From NCBI GenBank assembly GCA_020073705.1, contig JAIQES010000025.1:1-59517 (forward strand): a stretch of 59,517 nt of DNA, in the 5' to 3' direction. A model generated the notes under the pieces. It saw nothing but the letters and a program-made list of their open reading frames with translations, ran no database searches and was not told the DNA's origin. The first letter of the stretch is position 1; each line of letters starts with the position of its first letter. The stretch is from Terriglobia bacterium. Lineage in GTDB: Bacteria > Acidobacteriota > Terriglobia > Acidiferrales > UBA7541. Position numbers and translations under genes: made by a program. Below, piece after piece: positions 5,195-34,728 of the stretch.

Positions 5195-5836
5195 GTGATC
5201 AAACTTTCTTTTATCGGAATGTCCGGTGCGGGTAAGTCTTATTGGACGCGGAAACTTGCCGCGTCCGGATTTCGTGCGATCAGCGTTGACGATCGCATCG
5301 AGGGGAAGCTCGCCCCGGAGCTGAATGCAGGCGGTTACCGGGGCATTGGCGGCGTCGCGGAATGGATGGGATGGCCGGACCAGCCCGCGTACCGCGAACG
5401 CGAACAGAAATATCTGACGAGTGAAATTGAGTCCATGCGCGAGGCCCTGGACGAAATCGAGAGGTCGGCCGATGAAGGAATCGTATTGGACACCACAGGC
5501 AGCGTTATCTACACAGGTGATGAAATTTGCCGCCGCCTCCAACAGCTCACCACGGTCGTGTATCTTGCAGCTTCGCCTGCAGAAGAGGAAACTTTGATCG
5601 CACGATATTTGTCCGATCCCAAGCCCGTCCTCTGGGGCGGCGAGTTTTCCCAGCGTCCGGGTGAATCCGCGAAGGACGCGGTGGCGCGCTGTTATCCCCA
5701 GCTTATCGCCTACCGGAAACAACTTTACGAGCGGTATGCGCACCGCATCGTCCCCATGGAGCGCCTGCGAGACGCCGCGCTCGACGCACGCAGCTTCCTT
5801 GAACTCCTATTTTCGCAGGCGCGGCCCGCGCGATGA
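5195..5836 (+). CDS. Shikimate-kinase-like P-loop kinase
   Basis: A 213-residue protein starting at GTG 5195, with CCGAGGA just upstream. The Walker A loop is at the very N-terminus (GMSGAGKS, residues 8-15), followed by an SVDDRIE acidic motif where shikimate kinases have their substrate-binding Asp. The length is close to the shikimate/gluconate kinase family, but the middle (GIGGVAEWMGW and later KPVLWGGEF) does not match canonical AroK closely. The stop overlaps the start of threonine synthase (ATGA, 5833-5836), so the two are co-translated. I call it a small-molecule kinase of the AroK-like superfamily; the substrate is not settled, and a role next to ThrC should be considered. Confidence 0.75.
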   Translation: MIKLSFIGMSGAGKSYWTRKLAASGFRAISVDDRIEGKLAPELNAGGYRGIGGVAEWMGWPDQPAYREREQKYLTSEIESMREALDEIERSADEGIVLDTTGSVIYTGDEICRRLQQLTTVVYLAASPAEEETLIARYLSDPKPVLWGGEFSQRPGESAKDAVARCYPQLIAYRKQLYERYAHRIVPMERLRDAALDARSFLELLFSQARPAR

Positions 5837-7140
5837 AATTTCGAAGCACACTCCGCCGCAGTCCGGAAGTCTCTTTGCGCGATGCCGTCTTTCGCGGCTC
5901 CGCCCCGGACGGTGGCCTGTACATGCCGGTCGAGATGCCGCGCCTGCCCGCCGGCTTTTCCAGCCGCTTGCGCTCGCTTTCATTTCCCGAACTTGCCCGG
6001 GAGGTTGGCGCATTATTCGTCGGCGACGATGTTCCGCCGGACGCCTTGGCTGAAATTGTCACTGGGGCTTTTGATTTCCCGGTACCGCTGATCACCCTCA
6101 CCGAGCGGCTGCACATCCTCGAACTTTTCCACGGCCCGACCCTGGCGTTCAAGGATTTTGGCGCACGCTTCATGGCGCGCCTGATGGGGCATTTCGTCCA
6201 GGAAACGGGGAAGCTCCTCACGGTCATCGTCGCGACATCGGGTGACACGGGAAGCGCTGTCGCGCACGCCTTTCTGGGAGTCCCAGGCATCCGCGTCGTG
6301 ATTCTCTACCCTGCCGGGCGCGTCAGCGACGCGCAGGAAAAACAACTCACGACCCTGGGGCAGAACATCACCGCCCTCGAAGTGGCCGGTTCGTTTGACG
6401 ACTGCCAGCGCCTGGCCAAACAGGCTTTGGTCGATCCCATTGTCACGCAAGAGATCATGATCACATCGGCAAACTCAATCAACATTGCGCGACTGATCCC
6501 GCAGATGTTTTATTACTTTGGCGCATTCTCGCAACTTCGCGACCCGGCAATTCCGGTGGTTTTTTCAGTGCCCAGCGGCAACCTCGGCAACCTGACTGCG
6601 GGCTTGCTTGCCAAGCGGATTGGGCTCCCGGCCGCGCAATTCATCGTAGCCACCAATACAAACGACGTCGTCCCCGAATTTCTGCGGAGCGGACAATTGA
6701 TTCCGCGTGCTTCTCGCCACACGCTTTCCAACGCCATGGATGTCGGGAATCCGAGCAACTTCGCGCGCCTGGTCGATCTCTACGACAACGATCTGCGGGC
6801 CATCCGCCAGGATATCTGGGGCTGCAGCTTCAGCGATGAAGAAACGCTGCGCGCCATGCACGACGTGAATCAGCGCCACCACTACACGCTCGATCCACAT
6901 ACAGCCGTCGGCCTGCTCGGCTGGGAAAGTTTTGCAAAGCAGAATCAGGCGGCCGCGCAGGGGATCGTCCTGGCCACCGCGCATCCCGCGAAGTTCGCGG
7001 AGACGGTCGCCCGTGCCATCGGCATCCGGCCCGAAATGCCGGAGCGGCTCGCCGGCTTGCTGAAGCGGCCGAAGCAATCGATCCCATTTCCCAACCGCTT
7101 TTCCGCTCTCCAGGAATTTCTTCTATCTTCGAAGACCTGA
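5833..7140 (+). CDS. thrC: Threonine synthase
   Basis: A 435-residue PLP enzyme that converts O-phosphohomoserine to threonine. The N-terminus has the short non-PLP segment of the E. coli/yeast type (AVFRGSAPDGGLYMPVEMP). The PLP lysine lies in HGPTLAFKDFGARFMARL (around residue 110), and the phosphate-binding loop region is SGDTGSAV. The C-terminus continues with the PLP-fold domain (DPHTAVGLLGWES, LATAHPAKFAETV). Its start overlaps the stop of the upstream kinase by four bases. A second, more distant threonine-synthase-like gene lies at 28023-29273. No homoserine kinase or homoserine dehydrogenase is nearby. Confidence 0.92.
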   Translation: MKFRSTLRRSPEVSLRDAVFRGSAPDGGLYMPVEMPRLPAGFSSRLRSLSFPELAREVGALFVGDDVPPDALAEIVTGAFDFPVPLITLTERLHILELFHGPTLAFKDFGARFMARLMGHFVQETGKLLTVIVATSGDTGSAVAHAFLGVPGIRVVILYPAGRVSDAQEKQLTTLGQNITALEVAGSFDDCQRLAKQALVDPIVTQEIMITSANSINIARLIPQMFYYFGAFSQLRDPAIPVVFSVPSGNLGNLTAGLLAKRIGLPAAQFIVATNTNDVVPEFLRSGQLIPRASRHTLSNAMDVGNPSNFARLVDLYDNDLRAIRQDIWGCSFSDEETLRAMHDVNQRHHYTLDPHTAVGLLGWESFAKQNQAAAQGIVLATAHPAKFAETVARAIGIRPEMPERLAGLLKRPKQSIPFPNRFSALQEFLLSSKT

Positions 7141-13232: not shown

Positions 13233-13651
13233 TACTAACCCAGTGACTGATTTAATTCCGGGAAGGAACGGTGCGCAAAGGAAGAAGCAGGGCGCAGACA
13301 AACTCAAGACGCCTCGCTTCTTGATAGCGCTCCATCCGATTCCTCGAATGACAGTGGGCAGGTGTTAGCCACGCCCCCCAGGCGCCTCGGCGAAACTGCC
13401 TTCGGCGACTTCGGCGGAAGATCCTGCTGCACCTTTCGCTCGGACCCCCGAAGCTCCTCGGAACACCGGCCCGGCTACTGTTTGCTTCCGCACCTCTACC
13501 AAAACAACCCCACGATACCACCCCGAATACAACGGGTCAAACTCGCAAAGCCAAAAAGTTGGGCCATTTTGTGAGAATCCAACTAATCAGGAAGTGGCTA
13601 GAGGCAAGTTTCTCGCCTGCCATTTCGCTGATTGTGTTCGGTCTTCTATCT

Positions 13652-16810: not shown

Positions 16811-16900
16811 GGAGTCCCGAAGGGACGTCACAACTTAGCCCACTGCGGAAGCGGTGGGAAAATGGGTCGAGGATGACCAGAAAACCCCGGCAGGGGTGAC
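16811..16900. repeat. Cluster of short palindromes
   Basis: Between the DUF4159 gene and cysN three short palindromes follow each other: AGTCCCGAAGGGACGT, CCCACTGCGGAAGCGGTGGG and CCCCGGCAGGGG. Such stretches recur between genes in related genomes. No T-run follows, so they are not obvious terminators. Confidence 0.5.
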
Positions 16901-27774: not shown

Positions 27775-27882
27775 GGGAGCGTTGTAGATTCGCAGTAGCT
27801 GGACACGTGGCGATTTAAGGCAACTTGCTCCACGTAAAAAACTGCTAAAGAGTCGGACGAGCACTCAGATCAGGTTTTGAGC

Positions 27883-27922
27883 CCTCCCCGCATTCTTTGG
27901 CGTGGAGGGTTTCTTAGTTTTA
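27883..27922 (+). terminator. Candidate intrinsic terminator or attenuator
   Basis: CCCTCCCCGC and GCGTGGAGGG pair with one mismatch around a short loop and are followed by TTTCTTAGTTTT. It may end the receptor transcript. It also lies between a possible promoter at 27746 and the gene at 28023, so an attenuator is possible. I saw no T-box or SAM riboswitch bases. Confidence 0.5.
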
Positions 27923-28022: not shown

Positions 28023-29273
28023 ATGGGCGAATATTATCAGCTTAAGTGCCGTGAATGCGGCAAGTTATGGGGCAATGAGGCGCGCTCCTTTTGCGATGAG
28101 TGCCTTTCGCCTCTGGAAATTTCGTATGACATGGAAGCCGCGCGCGGCAAGTTTACGCGCAAGAATATCGAGGCGGGACCTACGAATTTGTGGCGCTACA
28201 GCGGCCTGCTTCCTCTCCCAGAAGGTTTCCAAGGCACACTCCCAACAGGCTTTACACCGCTGGTGAAAGCGCCCCACCTGGGCAAGCGGTTAGGAGCCAG
28301 CAATCTTTACATCAAGAACGATGCCGTCTGCTTCCCCACCCTCTCGTTCAAGGATCGCGTGGTGGCGGTGGCGCTGGCGGCGGCGCGCCGTTTTGGATTC
28401 AAGGTGGTAAGCTGCTCTTCGACGGGCAACTTGGCAAATGCCGTGGCCGCCCAGGCCGCGCGCGAAGGTTTCGATGCGTGGATTTTTGTTCCCGCCGACC
28501 TAGAGCCGGCAAAAATCACCGGCACTCAGGTCTTCGGCGCGCATCTGGTGCGGATTGCGGGCAACTACGATCAAGTGAACCGGCTGTGCTCGCAGATCTC
28601 GGAGAAATTCCACTGGGGATTCGTGAACGTGAACCTGCGGCCCTATTACGCGGAAGGCTCGAAGACCGTGGGCTACGAAATCGCCGAACAGCTCGGCTGG
28701 CGCCTGCCGGACAACGTCGTGGTGCCCATGGCCGGAGGCTCGCTGATCAGCAAAATCCGCAAATCGTTTTCGGAATTGATCGCGCTGGGCCTGGTCGAGG
28801 AAAAGAAGGTCAAGATCTTCGGCGCGCAGGCGACCGGCTGCTCTCCAATTTCAGACTCTGTCAAGCGCAACCTCGACCACTTTGAACCGCAAAAGCCGGC
28901 GACGATTGCGAGGTCGCTCGCCATCGGGAATCCGGCGGACGGCTACTACGCCTCGTGCGTGATCCGCGACAGCGGCGGCTGGGCGGAAGATGCCTCTGAT
29001 CCCGAACTCGTCAAGGGCATCCAGCTATTGGCGGAGACCGAAGGAATTTTCACGGAGACCGCCGGAGGCGTGACGACCTGGGTCACCAAGAAACTGATCG
29101 AGCAGGGACACATCGGCCCGCACGAGACCACGGTGGTTTGCATCACTGGCAACGGCCTCAAGACCATCGACGCCGTCTCCCAGGAATACACACTCAGTCC
29201 CGCTATCGAGCCGCGTCTGGCGGTGTTCGAGTCATTTATCAACGACCGCGTAGTTGCGATCGCAGGAAACTAA
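28023..29273 (+). CDS. Threonine-synthase-like PLP enzyme with N-terminal zinc ribbon
   Basis: A 416-residue fold-type II PLP enzyme. It opens with two Cys pairs (LKCRECGKLW and FCDECLSPLE), a zinc ribbon seen in the archaeal/plant-type threonine synthases. The PLP lysine is in PTLSFKDRVVAVALAAARRF (around residue 108) and the phosphate loop in SCSSTGNLANAVAA. The glycine loop VPMAGGSLISKI follows. It differs from the E. coli-type ThrC at 5833. Downstream are a ThiS-like sulfur carrier and cysH-cysG-asd-lysC. It may make threonine, or it may be a sulfhydrylase-like relative using sulfur from the carrier; sequence alone does not decide. Confidence 0.82.
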   Translation: MGEYYQLKCRECGKLWGNEARSFCDECLSPLEISYDMEAARGKFTRKNIEAGPTNLWRYSGLLPLPEGFQGTLPTGFTPLVKAPHLGKRLGASNLYIKNDAVCFPTLSFKDRVVAVALAAARRFGFKVVSCSSTGNLANAVAAQAAREGFDAWIFVPADLEPAKITGTQVFGAHLVRIAGNYDQVNRLCSQISEKFHWGFVNVNLRPYYAEGSKTVGYEIAEQLGWRLPDNVVVPMAGGSLISKIRKSFSELIALGLVEEKKVKIFGAQATGCSPISDSVKRNLDHFEPQKPATIARSLAIGNPADGYYASCVIRDSGGWAEDASDPELVKGIQLLAETEGIFTETAGGVTTWVTKKLIEQGHIGPHETTVVCITGNGLKTIDAVSQEYTLSPAIEPRLAVFESFINDRVVAIAGN

Positions 29274-29282
29274 GATTTGTGG

Positions 29283-29354
29283 GTCGGGCCTTCAGGCCCG
29301 ACAATGAGCCTGGGTAAGGAGCTTTTAAGCCCTGAAGCTTCAGGGGCTGAAGCC
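29283..29354. repeat. Palindromes of the TGAA/TTCA-loop family, three nested or adjacent
   Basis: GTCGGGCC-TTCA-GGCCCGAC (29283-29302) is followed by CCCTGAAGCTTCAGGG and, overlapping it, GGGGC-TGAA-GCCCC (to about 29354). Stems differ from those at 13173-13232 but the loop bases are the same. Confidence 0.75.
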
Positions 29355-29453
29355 CCACATGTTGCAGGCGATGATACCGGAGCTAAAGTTCCGGCCGACA
29401 AACCGAAAGAATCATGTGTTACGGGATTTTGGAGTCAGGAAACTAAAATCGAG

Positions 29454-29750
29454 ATGAAAATTACTGTGGATATACCAACAGCGCTGCGCCGGTTCACCGG
29501 CGGGGTTCAATCGATCGAATGCAGTTCGGCGACGCTGCCTGAACTGCTCGGGGAAATCGAACAGCGGTTCCCGGCGATCAACAAGCATCTGCGTGACGAC
29601 TCGGGGCAGGTCCGGCGTTTTGTGAACATTTACGTCAACGAGGAAGATATCCGGTTCCTCGGCGGCAACGAGTACCGGTTTCGCGATGGAGATCGTGTCC
29701 TGGTCGTGCCCTCGATCGCGGGTGGAGCGCCGGCGGATGCGTGCGGATGA
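29454..29750 (+). CDS. ThiS/MoaD-like sulfur-carrier protein with residues beyond Gly-Gly
   Basis: A 98-residue beta-grasp protein. The ATG at 29454 begins MKITVDIPTALRRFTGG; the weak AGGA upstream is not decisive. The body fits ThiS/MoaD (LPELLGEIEQRFPAINKHL, VRRFVNIYVNEEDIRFLGG, FRDGDRVLVVPSIAGG). Carriers of this kind are adenylated and thiocarboxylated at a C-terminal Gly-Gly. Here Gly-Gly is followed by APADACG, so a protease would have to trim it first, as in the CysO/Mec and HcyS/HcyD systems. Neighbours are a PLP enzyme upstream and cysH-cysG downstream. A role in protein-bound sulfur transfer to an amino acid is inferred. Confidence 0.75.
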   Translation: MKITVDIPTALRRFTGGVQSIECSSATLPELLGEIEQRFPAINKHLRDDSGQVRRFVNIYVNEEDIRFLGGNEYRFRDGDRVLVVPSIAGGAPADACG

Positions 29751-29970: not shown

Positions 29971-30007
29971 GCCCGCGAAGCCAAATGCTCGCGGGCGTTT
30001 TTATTTT
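29971..30007 (+). terminator. Intrinsic terminator between leader ORF and cysH
   Basis: GCCCGCGA (29971-29978) pairs perfectly with TCGCGGGC (29989-29996) around a 10-base loop, followed by GTTTTTATTTT. It lies 37 bases before the cysH start and 26 bases after the leader ORF stop, so cysH expression must involve read-through or antitermination. Confidence 0.82.
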
Positions 30008-30044
30008 GGGGCGGAGAGCACACGGAAGGCGCGGACAGAAACCT

Positions 30045-30743
30045 ATGAGCGCAGCGGCACAGGAAAAAATCAGCAACGTGCAGACCGATGCGGAGCGCTG
30101 GAATGCCGGGGAAGTCCTGCGCTGGGGGCTGGGGGAGTTCCATCCGCACGCGGCCATCGCATCGAGCTTTGGCGCGGAGGATGTCGTACTGATTGACCTC
30201 GCGGCCCGGGTGCGCCCGGATCTACGCGTATTCACGTTGGACACGGATTTCCTCTTCGCGGAAACCTATGAGCTGCTCGAGCAGATCGAGAACAAGTACG
30301 GAATCCGCGTCGAACGGATGAAATCTCTGCTGACGCCGGAAAGACAGGCTGAGCTGCACGGGCCGGCGCTGTGGTCGGTTGATCCGAACAAGTGCTGCTC
30401 GCTGCGCAAGGTCGAGCCGCTCAAGGTCAAGCTTAGCGAGCTGACCGCGTGGGCGACAGGCATCCGCCGCGACCAGGCGCCCACGCGCGCGAATGCAAAA
30501 AAAATCGAATGGGATGAAAAATTCGGCCTGGTGAAAATGAATCCGCTGGCGGACTGGACCCGGGACAACGTGTGGGAATACATCCGTGCCAACAACGTGC
30601 CCTATAATCCGCTGCACGAGCAGAATTATCCCAGCATCGGCTGCACATACTGCACGCGCCAAGTACAGCCGGGAGAAGACCCGCGCGCCGGGCGCTGGCC
30701 GGGCTTCGCGAAAAAGGAGTGCGGACTGCACGCTTCGGAGTAA
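30045..30743 (+). CDS. cysH: Adenylylsulfate (APS) reductase, assimilatory
   Basis: A 232-residue enzyme that reduces APS to sulfite using thioredoxin. The ATG at 30045 starts MSAAAQEK and lies after the terminator. The PP-loop-like region is IASSFGAEDVVLIDLA, with VFTLDTDFLFAETYEL next. The iron-sulfur cysteine pairs NKCCSLRKVEPL and IGCTYCTRQVQPGEDPRAGR mark the APS-reducing, [4Fe-4S]-containing type rather than the PAPS type. The catalytic C-terminal motif KKECGLH is present. This fits a CysN whose APS kinase domain is degenerate. Four bases separate it from cysG. Confidence 0.94.
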   Translation: MSAAAQEKISNVQTDAERWNAGEVLRWGLGEFHPHAAIASSFGAEDVVLIDLAARVRPDLRVFTLDTDFLFAETYELLEQIENKYGIRVERMKSLLTPERQAELHGPALWSVDPNKCCSLRKVEPLKVKLSELTAWATGIRRDQAPTRANAKKIEWDEKFGLVKMNPLADWTRDNVWEYIRANNVPYNPLHEQNYPSIGCTYCTRQVQPGEDPRAGRWPGFAKKECGLHASE

Positions 30744-30747
30744 AGAT

Positions 30748-32166
30748 ATGAGTTTGTTTCCCATCTTCGTAAAACTGGATGGCCGGCGGTGCCTGGTGGT
30801 GGGCGCCGGGACCGTGGCCGAGGCGAAGATCGAGAGCCTTCTGGCAACGGCAGCCTCGATACATGTGGTTGCGCCGAAGGCCACGGCCAAGGTGCGTGAA
30901 TGGTCGCGCGAGGGCCGCATCGAGTGGAATGCGCGCGAGTACGTGCCCGAGGATCTTTCCGGTGTGTTCCTGGTGATTGCTGCGACCGGGTCGCCGGCGC
31001 TGCATGACAAGATTTGCGCGGAAGCGCGCCGCAGCGGAGTATTGTGCAATGCAGTGGACGAGCCGCAGCGCTGCGACTTCTACTTCCCTGCCGTGGTGCG
31101 GCGGGGGGAGTTGCAGATTGCCATATCGACAGGGGGATTGAGCCCCGCGCTGGCGCAGCGGCTGCGGAAAGAACTGGAGCAGCAATTTGGTCCGGAATGG
31201 GAACAATGGGTGGCGCAACTCGGTCGAAAGCGCGAAGAGCTTTTGGACATTGCTATGCCTTCGGAACAACGGAAGCGGCTGCTGCACCAGTACGCGAGCC
31301 TGGACCCCGAAGTGCGCTACAGGAATCACGTTGGAGGAGTTGCCACCGGGATGCCTGGAAAAGTTTATCTCGTAGGAGCCGGCCCGGGCGACCCGGAACT
31401 GCTGACACGTAAGGCGTGGCGCGTGTTGCAGTCCGTCGGCGTCGTGTTGCACGATGATTTGGTTTCCGAAGAAATTCTCCGCGTCCTTCCACCAACGGCC
31501 GTGCTGCTGAATGTGGGGAAGCGTTGCGGCGCAAGAAAGATTTCCCAGGCTGAAGTGAACGAGCAGATGGTGAGTCTGGCCCGCGCGGGCAAGGTGGTTG
31601 CGCGCCTCAAGAGTGGCGACCCGCTGCTTTTCGGACGGGCGGGAGAGGAAATGGAAGCGCTGCGGCAGGCAGGTATCGAGTTCGAAGTAATTCCAGGAGT
31701 GACGGCGGCGCTGGGCGCGGCGGGAGCGGCCCGGATTTCGCTCACGGACCGGCGGCATGCTTCGCGCGTCGTATTCGTCACAGCTCATCGCTCGAATGGG
31801 TCGGGATTAACCAATGAGCGGCATGTGGCCGAGGACACCACCTACGTCATCTACATGCCGGGCAACCGTTATGCCGAGCTGGCCGCGGAGCTCGAAGCAG
31901 CGGGAATTGGCGCGCACATTCCGTGTGTTGTGATTTCGCGCGCAACAACCCGCGACGAGACGATTTACCGGACCACGGTCGGAAAATTGCCCAAGTGTCC
32001 GGCGGCGGTAGCGCCGTCTCTGCTGGTCGTTGGATACGTCGCGGGCGCACCGGCAGGCGAAGAAACGCGCGAGGGAGAGCTTTCGAGCGAGCTTTGCCCG
32101 GAAATTGTGAGTCTTGCAATGCAACATCCATTTCATAATTCCTACGGGAGGGGCAGTGTCGAATAA
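30748..32166 (+). CDS. cysG: Siroheme synthase: precorrin-2 dehydrogenase plus uroporphyrinogen-III methyltransferase
   Basis: A 472-residue fusion that makes siroheme for sulfite reductase. Residues 1-215 are the SirC/Met8-like dehydrogenase-chelatase (FVKLDGRRCLVVGAGTVAEA, CNAVDEPQRCDFYFPAVVRR, ISTGGLSPALAQRLRKELE). From about residue 215 comes the CobA/SUMT domain (VYLVGAGPGDPELLTRKAW, VVARLKSGDPLLFGRAGEE, VIPGVTAALGAAGAARISLT). The ATG at 30748 follows cysH by four bases. The end overlaps the asd start at 32156 by 11 bases. No sulfite reductase gene is in the window. Confidence 0.94.
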   Translation: MSLFPIFVKLDGRRCLVVGAGTVAEAKIESLLATAASIHVVAPKATAKVREWSREGRIEWNAREYVPEDLSGVFLVIAATGSPALHDKICAEARRSGVLCNAVDEPQRCDFYFPAVVRRGELQIAISTGGLSPALAQRLRKELEQQFGPEWEQWVAQLGRKREELLDIAMPSEQRKRLLHQYASLDPEVRYRNHVGGVATGMPGKVYLVGAGPGDPELLTRKAWRVLQSVGVVLHDDLVSEEILRVLPPTAVLLNVGKRCGARKISQAEVNEQMVSLARAGKVVARLKSGDPLLFGRAGEEMEALRQAGIEFEVIPGVTAALGAAGAARISLTDRRHASRVVFVTAHRSNGSGLTNERHVAEDTTYVIYMPGNRYAELAAELEAAGIGAHIPCVVISRATTRDETIYRTTVGKLPKCPAAVAPSLLVVGYVAGAPAGEETREGELSSELCPEIVSLAMQHPFHNSYGRGSVE

Positions 32167-33265
32167 TCGAGTGCGGGTGGGAATTCTGGGCGCGACCGGA
32201 ATGGTCGGCCAGCGTTTCGTGCAGTTGTTGGCGAACCATCCAGGGTTCGTGGTGACGGCGCTGGCAGCGTCGGACCGTTCGCAGGGAAAGCCGTATGGCG
32301 AAGCCTGTACGTGGCGGCTGGTGGGCGACATGCCGCCATTAGTGAGGCCAATGGTGGTCCAGTCGCCGCAGCCGCCGCTGGAATGTGACGTGGTGCTCTC
32401 CAGCTTGCCTTCCGATATCGCGCGAGCCGCGGAAGAAAGCTTCGCGCGCGCCGGCTATCCGGTGATCAGCAACGCGTCTTCATTCCGCATGGACGCCGAC
32501 GTTCCGCTCTTGATTCCCGAAATCAATGCAGACCATCTGGACGTTCTCCCGCGACAACGGAGGGAAAGAGGATTCGGCGACGGCTATATTGTCACGAACC
32601 CGAATTGCTCGACAATTATCATGGCTCTAGCGCTGGCGCCTCTCCACCAGCGATTCGGCATCGAAGCAGTCGTGGCGACAACCCTCCAAGCGGTTTCGGG
32701 CGCCGGCTACCCGGGCGTGCCGTCGCTTGACGTCGTCGACAACGTGCTTCCCTTCATCGACGGGGAAGAAGCAAAAATGGAGCGCGAGACACGAAAAATT
32801 CTTGGCCGCCTGGGGCACACCGCATTCGAGGACGCTGCCTTTGTGGTCAGCGCGCAATGTCATCGCGTGAACGTCGCCGACGGACACACGGTGGCAGTGC
32901 GCGTGAAGCTGTGCAAGCGCGCTAGCATCACGGAAGTTCGCGAAGCGCTCTCCGCATACCGGTCTGTTCCGCAGGAACTGCGCCTCCATTCCGCTCCGGA
33001 GCGGCCCGTCATCGTGCGGGATGAGAATGACCGGCCGCAGCCGCGCCTGGACCGCGATACGGGCGGAGGCATGAGCGTGACGGTGGGGCGGCTGTTTCCT
33101 GACAGCGTGCTCGACTACCGTTTCGTTGTCCTGGGACACAATACGATCCGCGGCGCAGCCGGCGCGGCGATTCTGAATGCCGAACTGCTGCAGGCTCGCG
33201 GCCTGCTCGAAGGGAAATCGGCGCGGGAAGATACAACAGCCACCGCCCAGGCGAGGTTGCGATGA
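32156..33265 (+). CDS. asd: Aspartate-semialdehyde dehydrogenase
   Basis: A 369-residue NADP-dependent enzyme. The GTG at 32156 has GGGAGGGG upstream and gives a proper start just before the Rossmann loop (VRVGILGATGMVGQRFVQLL); an ATG at 32114 is out of line with the ribosome site. The catalytic cysteine is in VTNPNCSTIIMALALAPLH (around residue 146), and the substrate-binding histidine region is QCHRVNVADGH. The sequence is closest to the archaeal/fungal subclass. It turns aspartyl phosphate into the semialdehyde used by the dap operon at 9.6-13.2 kb and by threonine/methionine synthesis. It overlaps cysG and lysC, so sulfur reduction and the aspartate pathway share a transcript. Confidence 0.93.
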   Translation: MSNNRVRVGILGATGMVGQRFVQLLANHPGFVVTALAASDRSQGKPYGEACTWRLVGDMPPLVRPMVVQSPQPPLECDVVLSSLPSDIARAAEESFARAGYPVISNASSFRMDADVPLLIPEINADHLDVLPRQRRERGFGDGYIVTNPNCSTIIMALALAPLHQRFGIEAVVATTLQAVSGAGYPGVPSLDVVDNVLPFIDGEEAKMERETRKILGRLGHTAFEDAAFVVSAQCHRVNVADGHTVAVRVKLCKRASITEVREALSAYRSVPQELRLHSAPERPVIVRDENDRPQPRLDRDTGGGMSVTVGRLFPDSVLDYRFVVLGHNTIRGAAGAAILNAELLQARGLLEGKSAREDTTATAQARLR

Positions 33266-34728
33266 GCCGCCCGATTCAAGTGATGAAGTTCGGCGGCACG
33301 TCGGTCGGCGACGCCAAGCGAATCCGGAACGCGGCCACGATCGCCGCGGAGGCTTCGAAGCAGCGCTCCGTGGTTGTAGTCGTTTCGGCGATGTCGGGGG
33401 TGACAAACACACTCATCTCCGCAGCGGGAAAGGCAGCGACTGGAAATGAAGCCGCGGCAGAGGCACTCGCCAAAGCCCTCCAAACAAAGCACCGGGAAAC
33501 GATCGAAGCGCTGATTTCAGACGGCGAACAGCGCCGGGAACTGCTCGATGAAATAGACGTATTGATCGATCGGGCCGCGAACTATTGCCGAGGATGCGCG
33601 TTGCTCGGCGAACTCTCACCCCGCGCGCTGGACGTAATTGCGGGCTCCGGCGAGCGGATTTGCGCGCGAATTGCAGCCGCCGTGCTTCGCCAGATGGGGT
33701 ACCGTGGCGTGGCGTTCGACGCGACCGATCTGATTGTGACCGATGAGGTCCACGGCGGCGCGCGGCCGCTGGCCGGGCCAACGCGTGAGAAAACGCGGGC
33801 CGCGCTGCTGCCCCTGATCGAAGGGGGCGGAATTCCCGTCGTCACGGGATACATTGCCGCCACCGCCAAGGGTGTTCCCACGACGCTGGGCCGCGGCGGA
33901 TCTGATTTTTCCGCCACGATTCTGGGCGCGGCGCTCGACGCAGAAGACGTCATCATCTGGACCGATGTGAACGGAGTGCAGACGGCGGACCCAAGGATGG
34001 TCCCCGAAGCCGTTACGCTCGACGAGGTTTCCTACGCGGAGGCGGGCGAGTTGGCGTTCTTCGGTGCGAAGGTACTGCACCCGATGACACTGCGCCCCGT
34101 GGTCGATAGTGGGATCCCGGTATGGATTCGCAACAGCTTCGAGCCACACAAGGCTGGAACCAAAATCACGCAGACGGCTCGCCCGACGCCGCATGGCGTA
34201 AAGGCGGTTACCGCGACCCGCGACGTAGCCATGATCGCGGTTGCGGGCCCTGGGATCATCGGCGTGCCGGACATCGCGGCGCGCATTTTTGCCGCGTCCG
34301 CCTCGGTCCGCGCAAACATCGTGATGATTTCGCAATCGTCTTCGCAGGACAACATCTGCTTCGTGGTGCAGGCAGCGGACGCCGTCCGCACGGAGAAAGC
34401 GCTGCGGGATGCTCTGCATGAAGACGTGCGCCACCATGACCTCGAACACGTCAAGGTGAATCGGAATGTGGCCATCGTCGCGGCGGTCGGTGAAAAAATG
34501 TGCGGCACTCCGGGCATCGCCGGGCGCGTCTTCAGCACCATGGGCAACGAAGGCGTCAACATCATCGCCATCGCGCAGGGGTCATCGGAATATAACATCT
34601 CGTTTCTAGTGGAATCGAGCGGCATGGAGAAAGCCGTCAAGGCGCTGCATCGGGCCTTCGGCCTCGGCCAGGTGGAATCGGGAGAAAAAGCAAGCACGGC
34701 CGCACAGGTGACCTCGAAAACCGCTTGA
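33262..34728 (+). CDS. lysC: Aspartate kinase
   Basis: A 488-residue enzyme for the first step of the aspartate family. The N-terminal signature is MKFGGTSVGDAKRIRNAA (around residue 8); the catalytic core includes TTLGRGGSDFSATILGAALD (around residue 210) and NGVQTADPRMVPEA. Two ACT domains end the protein (AVAGPGIIGVPDIAARIFAA and AAVGEKMCGTPGIAGRVFST), so feedback control by lysine or threonine is likely. It is not fused to homoserine dehydrogenase. Its start overlaps the asd stop (ATGA). Last gene of the operon; no clear terminator follows. Confidence 0.95.
   Translation: MSRPIQVMKFGGTSVGDAKRIRNAATIAAEASKQRSVVVVVSAMSGVTNTLISAAGKAATGNEAAAEALAKALQTKHRETIEALISDGEQRRELLDEIDVLIDRAANYCRGCALLGELSPRALDVIAGSGERICARIAAAVLRQMGYRGVAFDATDLIVTDEVHGGARPLAGPTREKTRAALLPLIEGGGIPVVTGYIAATAKGVPTTLGRGGSDFSATILGAALDAEDVIIWTDVNGVQTADPRMVPEAVTLDEVSYAEAGELAFFGAKVLHPMTLRPVVDSGIPVWIRNSFEPHKAGTKITQTARPTPHGVKAVTATRDVAMIAVAGPGIIGVPDIAARIFAASASVRANIVMISQSSSQDNICFVVQAADAVRTEKALRDALHEDVRHHDLEHVKVNRNVAIVAAVGEKMCGTPGIAGRVFSTMGNEGVNIIAIAQGSSEYNISFLVESSGMEKAVKALHRAFGLGQVESGEKASTAAQVTSKTA

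Follow-up and report, generated by a model that had tools for sequence, protein, structure and literature searches.

A probable MetM/MetO pair for carrier-fed homocysteine synthesis behind a SAM-II-like riboswitch in a Terriglobia bacterium

Homocysteine synthesis in Wolinella succinogenes is fed by a protein thiocarboxylate through HcyS, HcyD, HcyF and MetY. A JAMM protease removes extra C-terminal residues in this system, and its PLP enzyme is an O-acetylhomoserine sulfhydrylase of the Cys/Met-metabolism family (PF01053). The protease Mec frees cysteine from its adduct with the carrier CysO. The original prediction for the DNA examined here took CysO/CysM and HcyS as its parallels. Their carrier logic is supported, but the closest described system is instead the MetM/MetO pair of Streptomyces albulus, which, as reported in PMC12172450, comprises an O-phosphohomoserine homocysteine synthase (MetM), metO and an upstream SAM riboswitch (Hasebe et al., 2024, Appl Environ Microbiol 90:e01247-24). 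The same source credits Hasebe et al. (2024) with MetM homologues in cyanobacteria. Operons that combine a carrier, an E1, a JAB protein and a cysteine synthase, one of them in an acidobacterium, have also been described (Iyer et al., 2006; PMC1779556), and the passages on these operons do not mention a pairing with a threonine synthase (ThrC)-like enzyme.

We analyzed a 59,517-nt stretch of DNA (the window; contig JAIQES010000025.1) from a Terriglobia bacterium whose 3.79-Mb genome is assembled in 78 contigs and is 97% complete. Its gene content, gene pairing, riboswitches, enzyme phylogeny, residue switches and partner genes suggest, with a probability that we put at about 0.8, that the window encodes an acidobacterial MetM/MetO pair: a carrier-fed O-phosphohomoserine homocysteine synthase under the control of a SAM riboswitch. 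For this assignment, S. albulus MetM was known by description and a relative from Nonomuraea (locus L160) served as its sequence stand-in.

Gene order and phylogeny of the threonine synthase-like enzyme

The locus contains the following genes:

28023-29273, + strand: metM homologue, a threonine-synthase-like PLP enzyme of 416 amino acids (PF00291, NCBIfam, tree, diagnostic residues, fold)
29454-29750, + strand: metO homologue, a ThiS/MoaD/CysO-type sulfur carrier of 98 amino acids (PF02597, nearest structures, pairing)
29985-30743, + strand: cysH, APS/PAPS reductase; ORF with a likely start near 30045 (PRK02090, 281.9 bits; TIGR02055, above cut-off)
30748-32166, + strand: cysG-like sirohaem synthase, start at about 30748 (NF007922, 422.8 bits, above cut-off)
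32114-33265, + strand: asd, aspartate-semialdehyde dehydrogenase, start codon uncertain (TIGR00978, 452.9 bits, above cut-off)
33262-34728, + strand: lysC, aspartate kinase, overlapping the asd stop (TIGR00657, 399.7 bits, above cut-off)

The metM product carries an N-terminal zinc ribbon (Cx2C...Cx2C; C9, C12, C24 and C27) and is a fold-type-II PLP enzyme (PF00291) that keeps the core of the PLP site, SFKDR, with the PLP lysine at K110. MetO matches PF02597 with 52.1 bits. Its true start is the ATG at 29454, as homologues begin M-x-V/I-x-IPTxLR, and the ORF listed from 29277 starts too early. These profiles and motifs bear out the original prediction of a zinc-ribbon PLP enzyme followed by a carrier ending GG-APADACG and then by cysH-cysG. 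The genes cysH, cysG, asd and lysC all lie 3' of metM-metO on the same strand. The first two fit a service in sulfate reduction, with cysH as the source of reduced sulfur, and asd and lysC fit as providers of the carbon skeleton. About 295 bases separate metO from cysH, and we assume that the two are co-transcribed. The gap between metM and metO (29274-29453) contains two palindromes, GGGCCTTCAGGCCC and GGGGCTGAAGCCCC, plus an imperfect third, each present once in the window; they may represent a repeat element that was inserted between the two genes.

Gene order varies among relatives. For example, cysH-cysG lies 5' of metM-metO in an NC10 bacterium (L100), and other relatives have lysC, asd or E1 beside metM. 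In other phyla or families (L098, L102, L183 and L189), the metM cluster contains genes for E1, CysM or a cysteine desulfurase. The gene upstream of metM-metO in L183 codes for a cysteine desulfurase family protein (TIGR01977, above cut-off), and we rejected a metZ label for it. L187 and L188 have a similar match at the same place upstream of metM, and a role of these desulfurase-like proteins as dedicated sulfur donors is possible.

Homologues of the enzyme were found in 44 of the 199 Acidobacteriota genomes sampled, and a plasmid collection yielded a single close MetM, that of Nonomuraea. The replicon that encodes it, an 11.85-Mb "plasmid I" (NZ_LT559118.1, Nonomuraea gerenzanensis), has the look of a chromosome filed under plasmids by mistake.

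The best curated name for the metM product is threonine synthase (TIGR00260, above cut-off; NCBIfam), and ThrC is the closest known fold to its predicted structure (pLDDT 83). Furthermore, a Microcystis homologue that is 51.6% identical to S. albulus MetM and is encoded next to a metO-like gene showed threonine synthesis and threonine deamination in vitro, with no clear homocysteine (PMC12172450). This result is the main published caution against the MetM/MetO reading. It supports, together with the name and the fold, an enzyme that acts as threonine synthase, with or without deaminase activity, and that stands beside a carrier gene by chance. We consider such an enzyme quite improbable, given the phylogeny and residues of the metM proteins and the independent ThrC genes of their hosts. 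We placed 50 proteins in a tree that included metM homologues, ThrCs of known structure and ThrC paralogs encoded alongside metM. Its 29 metM rows, which represent Acidobacteria, NC10, Nitrospinota, Mariprofundaceae, Dadabacteria, delta-proteobacterial bins and one actinobacterium, all fell into a single clade with 100/100 support. Neither the paralogs nor the ThrCs of known structure (Thermus, Aquifex, Bacillus, Mycobacterium and Arabidopsis) joined it. The enzyme therefore did not group with proven threonine synthases, in line with the original prediction.

Residue patterns divide the two groups in the same way. At 23 positions, the six ThrCs compared share one fixed residue and the metM clade has a different fixed one. 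The switches include, from Thermus ThrC to MetM, T88 to L137, S155 to N204, N157 to R206 and R160 to Y209, and further Q164 to S213, N191 to L241 and W249 to G307; none of these seven ThrC-invariant residues is kept in the metM clade. Our literature search found no residue-level account of ThrC substrate binding. Across the genomes examined, almost all metM homologues can be told from every ThrC by an 18-position signature, and a nearly fixed diagnostic string reads DLVLYNRYSASLKSGTGT in metM and EGGTFSNRQGGNAAWPSD in ThrC.

We also identified in the window a separate threonine branch:

5195-5836, + strand: shikimate-kinase-like P-loop kinase overlapping thrC (NF040667 hom_kin_desulfo, 36.9 bits against a cut-off of 197; PF01202, 22.2 bits)
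5833-7140, + strand: canonical type-I threonine synthase, separate from metM (PF14821, 72 bits; TIGR00260, 302.7 bits)

Two close relatives also have a type-I ThrC. Five other Acidobacteria (G005-G009) have a type-II ThrC directly beside thrB, and in these genomes thrB adjoins this other paralog and not metM. The separate clade, the switched residues and the separate ThrC genes thus indicate that the metM product is not a typical threonine synthase. We rejected a plain ThrC identity on the clade and the replaced invariant residues.

SAM riboswitches upstream of metM

Two RNA elements precede metM in the window:

27800-27856, + strand: SAM-II-type (SAM_alpha-like) riboswitch aptamer (RF00521, sub-gathering; conserved motif)
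27879-27912, + strand: terminator-like hairpin, then a U-rich stretch (folding: -19.9 kcal/mol, z -3.36)

The aptamer has a P1 stem (ACGTGG/CCACGT) in which 27805-27810 pairs with 27830-27835, and the conserved elements GATTTA, CTTGC and GCTAAAG. Its match to RF00521 scored 25.0 bits (E = 3.7e-4 for 131 nt and 0.0068 for 2.4 kb), below the Rfam gathering score of 36 for SAM-II/SAM_alpha, and the identification as SAM-II-like therefore rests on motif and conservation. A 44-nt aptamer core, identical save one base, is common to the window and two relatives (L029 and L081), and the shared element carries the SAM-II signature CGTGG-GATTTA-CTTGC-CCACGT-GCTAAAGAG. There is one copy per genome, and the window holds the sole copy of its own genome. 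A further genome (L030) has the element near the end of another contig, and the L030 contig itself begins where the element should end. The window, L029, L081 and L030 form one metM sub-clade (98/94), so one exchange of SAM-I for SAM-II is enough to account for this distribution. The hairpin is the probable expression platform of the riboswitch. A generic terminator scan missed it and folding revealed it; by folding, the equivalent hairpins of L029 and L081 have z values of -4.4 and -4.2. In alphaproteobacteria, met genes are controlled by SAM-II aptamers with a terminator behind them (PMC9373788).

Most relatives carry the other riboswitch class, which shares the ligand and differs in fold. 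Matches to RF00162 above gathering place SAM-I immediately 5' of metM in 7 of 12 loci. With a model derived from these positive loci, SAM-I was found before metM in 70 of 80. The Rfam SAM-I model also matched upstream of metM in Nonomuraea, L098 and NC10. There was no SAM-I upstream of metM in the window, L029 or L081, and no SAM riboswitch was detected in L094-L097, L099, L102, L183, L185-L192, L196 and L197. The model derived from the positive loci found no SAM riboswitch before the ThrC-like paralogs of relatives (0 of 15). This restriction to metM is a further argument against a threonine synthase, and the SAM riboswitches, as read from sequence, mark the metM-metO pair as methionine genes. 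The SAM-I/SAM-II swap before one orthologous gene also offers a clean natural example of riboswitch-class replacement.

Elsewhere in the window we identified a lysine riboswitch (RF00168, 62.7 bits; 13317-13506, - strand) upstream of - strand lysine-pathway genes, and an Acido-Lenti-1 RNA (RF01687, 50.1 bits; 16813-16858, - strand), which belongs to a family of unknown function.

The MetO carrier, its tail and its partner genes

The carrier gene lies directly downstream of metM in 78 of 80 homologous loci, a frequency that argues against a chance pairing and confirms that the carrier is conserved beside the PLP enzyme. metM homologues without an adjacent carrier occur in L077, L091, L184 and L193-L197, and four of these loci (L184, L193, L194 and L195) still have SAM-I. 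Such loci, and the cysH and cysG genes that would supply sulfide in the window, are compatible with a MetM that uses free sulfide on O-phosphohomoserine and a MetO that is a co-regulated general carrier for tRNA or cofactor thiolation. We regard the free-sulfide route as unlikely in view of the tight metM-metO pairing and of the E1, CysM or cysteine desulfurase genes in the metM clusters of other groups. Furthermore, the Terriglobia metO and cysO genes formed separate clades in the carrier tree, which is short and has many deep forks unresolved.

The carrier-fed reading also has to accommodate the C-terminus of MetO, PSIAGG-APADACG, in which the Gly-Gly is followed by an extension:

29727-29747, + strand: seven-codon tail (APADACG) after Gly-Gly, variable in relatives

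The nearest solved structures to MetO are 4n6e, a ThiS/MoaD family protein, and M. tuberculosis CysO (3dwg), and the APADACG tail would have to be removed before MetO could be activated. PSIAGG is constant in the 68 Terriglobia carriers measured. The residues after it number 0 in 9 loci, 1-3 in 49 and 34 at most, counts that come from related loci and hence not from independent events. The tails have no common sequence except for a Cys-rich type in one group, and nine acidobacterial loci outside Terriglobia have a carrier that ends exactly at Gly-Gly. The tail thus appears to face little selection, as would be the case for residues that a protease trims off. Its free variation makes the role of JAMM trimming directly testable.

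Two kinds of extension stand out. Cys-rich tails with a shared CCSYCGxEECxC-like motif follow Gly-Gly in L035, L036, L045, L055, L066, L092 and L171; the motif is conserved within one Acidobacteriaceae group and is possibly a metal or persulfide site. In a delta-proteobacterial/myxobacterial bin (L094, 4346-4858), a NIL domain (PF09383, 46.9 bits) is fused to a MetO-like carrier directly after Gly-Gly. The arrangement resembles a ubiquitin fusion that would need cleavage to free both parts.

The original prediction saw no Mec-like protease or E1 in the window. We noted none there either, and the partners are encoded on other contigs. The genome has two Prok-JAB (JAMM) genes, neither of them on the metM contig. 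One is the mec gene of a CysM-Mec-CysO run on contig C52, which is closely followed by a gene for an E1-rhodanese fusion, and the other is on contig C73. A JAMM gene was present in all 12 genomes examined. The C52 CysO is also tailed (GG-SPNSTND). The genome therefore has two CysO-type carriers, 51% identical, one per PLP enzyme, and relatives have the same layout.

MetO is 46% identical to M. tuberculosis CysO, and this similarity, that to the CysO of its own genome and the adjoining cysH would suit a pair that makes cysteine from O-phosphoserine, as CysM/CysO do. We find this extremely improbable, since the genome has a CysM-Mec-CysO locus on another contig. Over 208 residues, MetM shares only 24.5% identity with CysM, and we rejected a CysM-type identity for a protein this distant from a CysM encoded elsewhere. 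Moreover, the SAM riboswitch and the asd and lysC neighbours are marks of the methionine family and point to homocysteine rather than cysteine. The original prediction of a sulfhydrylase that forms either cysteine or homocysteine is thus narrowed to its second half: homocysteine agrees with the riboswitch and the aspartate-family neighbours, and cysteine is disfavoured by the separate CysM-Mec-CysO-E1 locus.

Predicted pathway and comparison with known systems

The source of O-phosphohomoserine is the weakest link of the MetM/MetO reading. No GHMP homoserine kinase (ThrB) scored above cut-off in the genome. The P-loop kinase that overlaps thrC is a candidate non-GHMP homoserine kinase and could provide the substrate. 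MetA was found in none of the 12 genomes. The best MetX-like match of the genome is partial (84 bits over 207 of 351 positions), and three other genomes have matches of 280-454 bits; the curated MetX cut-off is no guide to these scores, as no control genome reaches it. The lack of MetA and of a convincing MetX in a genome that is 97% complete is suggestive. We also identified a single full-length PF01053 enzyme, unlinked to metM, that best matches cystathionine gamma-lyase models. It would fit, with a cystathionine beta-synthase-like gene also present, a pathway of reverse transsulfuration. We rejected an HcyS/MetY type of system, as this gamma-lyase-like enzyme is the sole full-length PF01053 protein of the genome and no O-acetylhomoserine sulfhydrylase of that family stands beside the carrier.

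In the pathway that we propose, a JAMM protease, probably the Mec of the CysO locus or the second JAMM, would trim MetO behind Gly-Gly. The rhodanese-fused E1 would adenylate the trimmed carrier, leading to a C-terminal thiocarboxylate. MetM, a ThrC relative that has lost the ThrC pocket residues, would then carry out a gamma-replacement on O-phosphohomoserine with the carrier sulfur. The product would be homocysteine, either free or attached to the carrier as an adduct. From the adduct it would be freed through hydrolysis by a JAMM protease, perhaps as Mec does with CysO-cysteine. The homocysteine would be converted to methionine and then to SAM, which would shut the operon via the SAM-II-like riboswitch and terminator before metM.

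A broader scenario, to which we give about even odds, is that Terriglobia keep two CysO-type carriers, dedicated to cysteine and to homocysteine respectively, and that a single E1 and a single JAMM protease serve both. The protease would mature the carriers and also release the amino acid from its adduct. The tail would thereby be freed from selection and drift between 0 and 34 residues, up to the NIL fusion of the myxobacterial-bin relative, and SAM-I before metM would have been replaced by SAM-II in this clade. As long as these genes are annotated as threonine synthases, many soil acidobacteria seem to have an interrupted methionine pathway. Recognizing MetM/MetO would close this gap with no need for an acyl-homoserine step, and the predicted phenotype concerns methionine rather than threonine.

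Compared with ThrC (Thermus 1uim, Bacillus 6cgq and M. tuberculosis 2d1f), the enzyme shares the fold, the PLP lysine and probably the substrate, O-phosphohomoserine, but differs in its clade, 23 switched positions, N-terminal zinc ribbon, SAM riboswitch and carrier neighbour. The likeness to CysO/CysM/Mec of M. tuberculosis lies in the carrier (fold and sequence), in the JAMM and E1 genes of the genome and in the logic of a phospho-amino-acid sulfhydrylase. However, the PLP enzyme in the window is ThrC-like, CysM-Mec-CysO forms a second, distinct locus, and M. tuberculosis CysO ends at Gly-Gly whereas the window carrier has a tail. Unlike the PLP enzyme of the HcyS/MetY system, that of the window belongs to PF00291, with O-phosphohomoserine as its likely substrate.

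The window shares with S. albulus MetM/MetO a ThrC-like PLP enzyme, a carrier gene beside it and a SAM riboswitch in front. In Nonomuraea, the actinobacterial relative, SAM-I, metM (54% identity) and metO (41%) follow in the same order, and its carrier ends at Gly-Gly, in contrast to the tailed carrier of the window. The window further differs from S. albulus in having a SAM-II-like element in place of SAM-I, a gene run that continues into cysH-cysG-asd-lysC, and an acidobacterial host with a separate CysO/Mec system. Thus, metM-metO belongs here to the recently described MetM/MetO kind, to which our analysis adds a residue signature, a riboswitch-class swap, variable carrier tails and a two-carrier genome.
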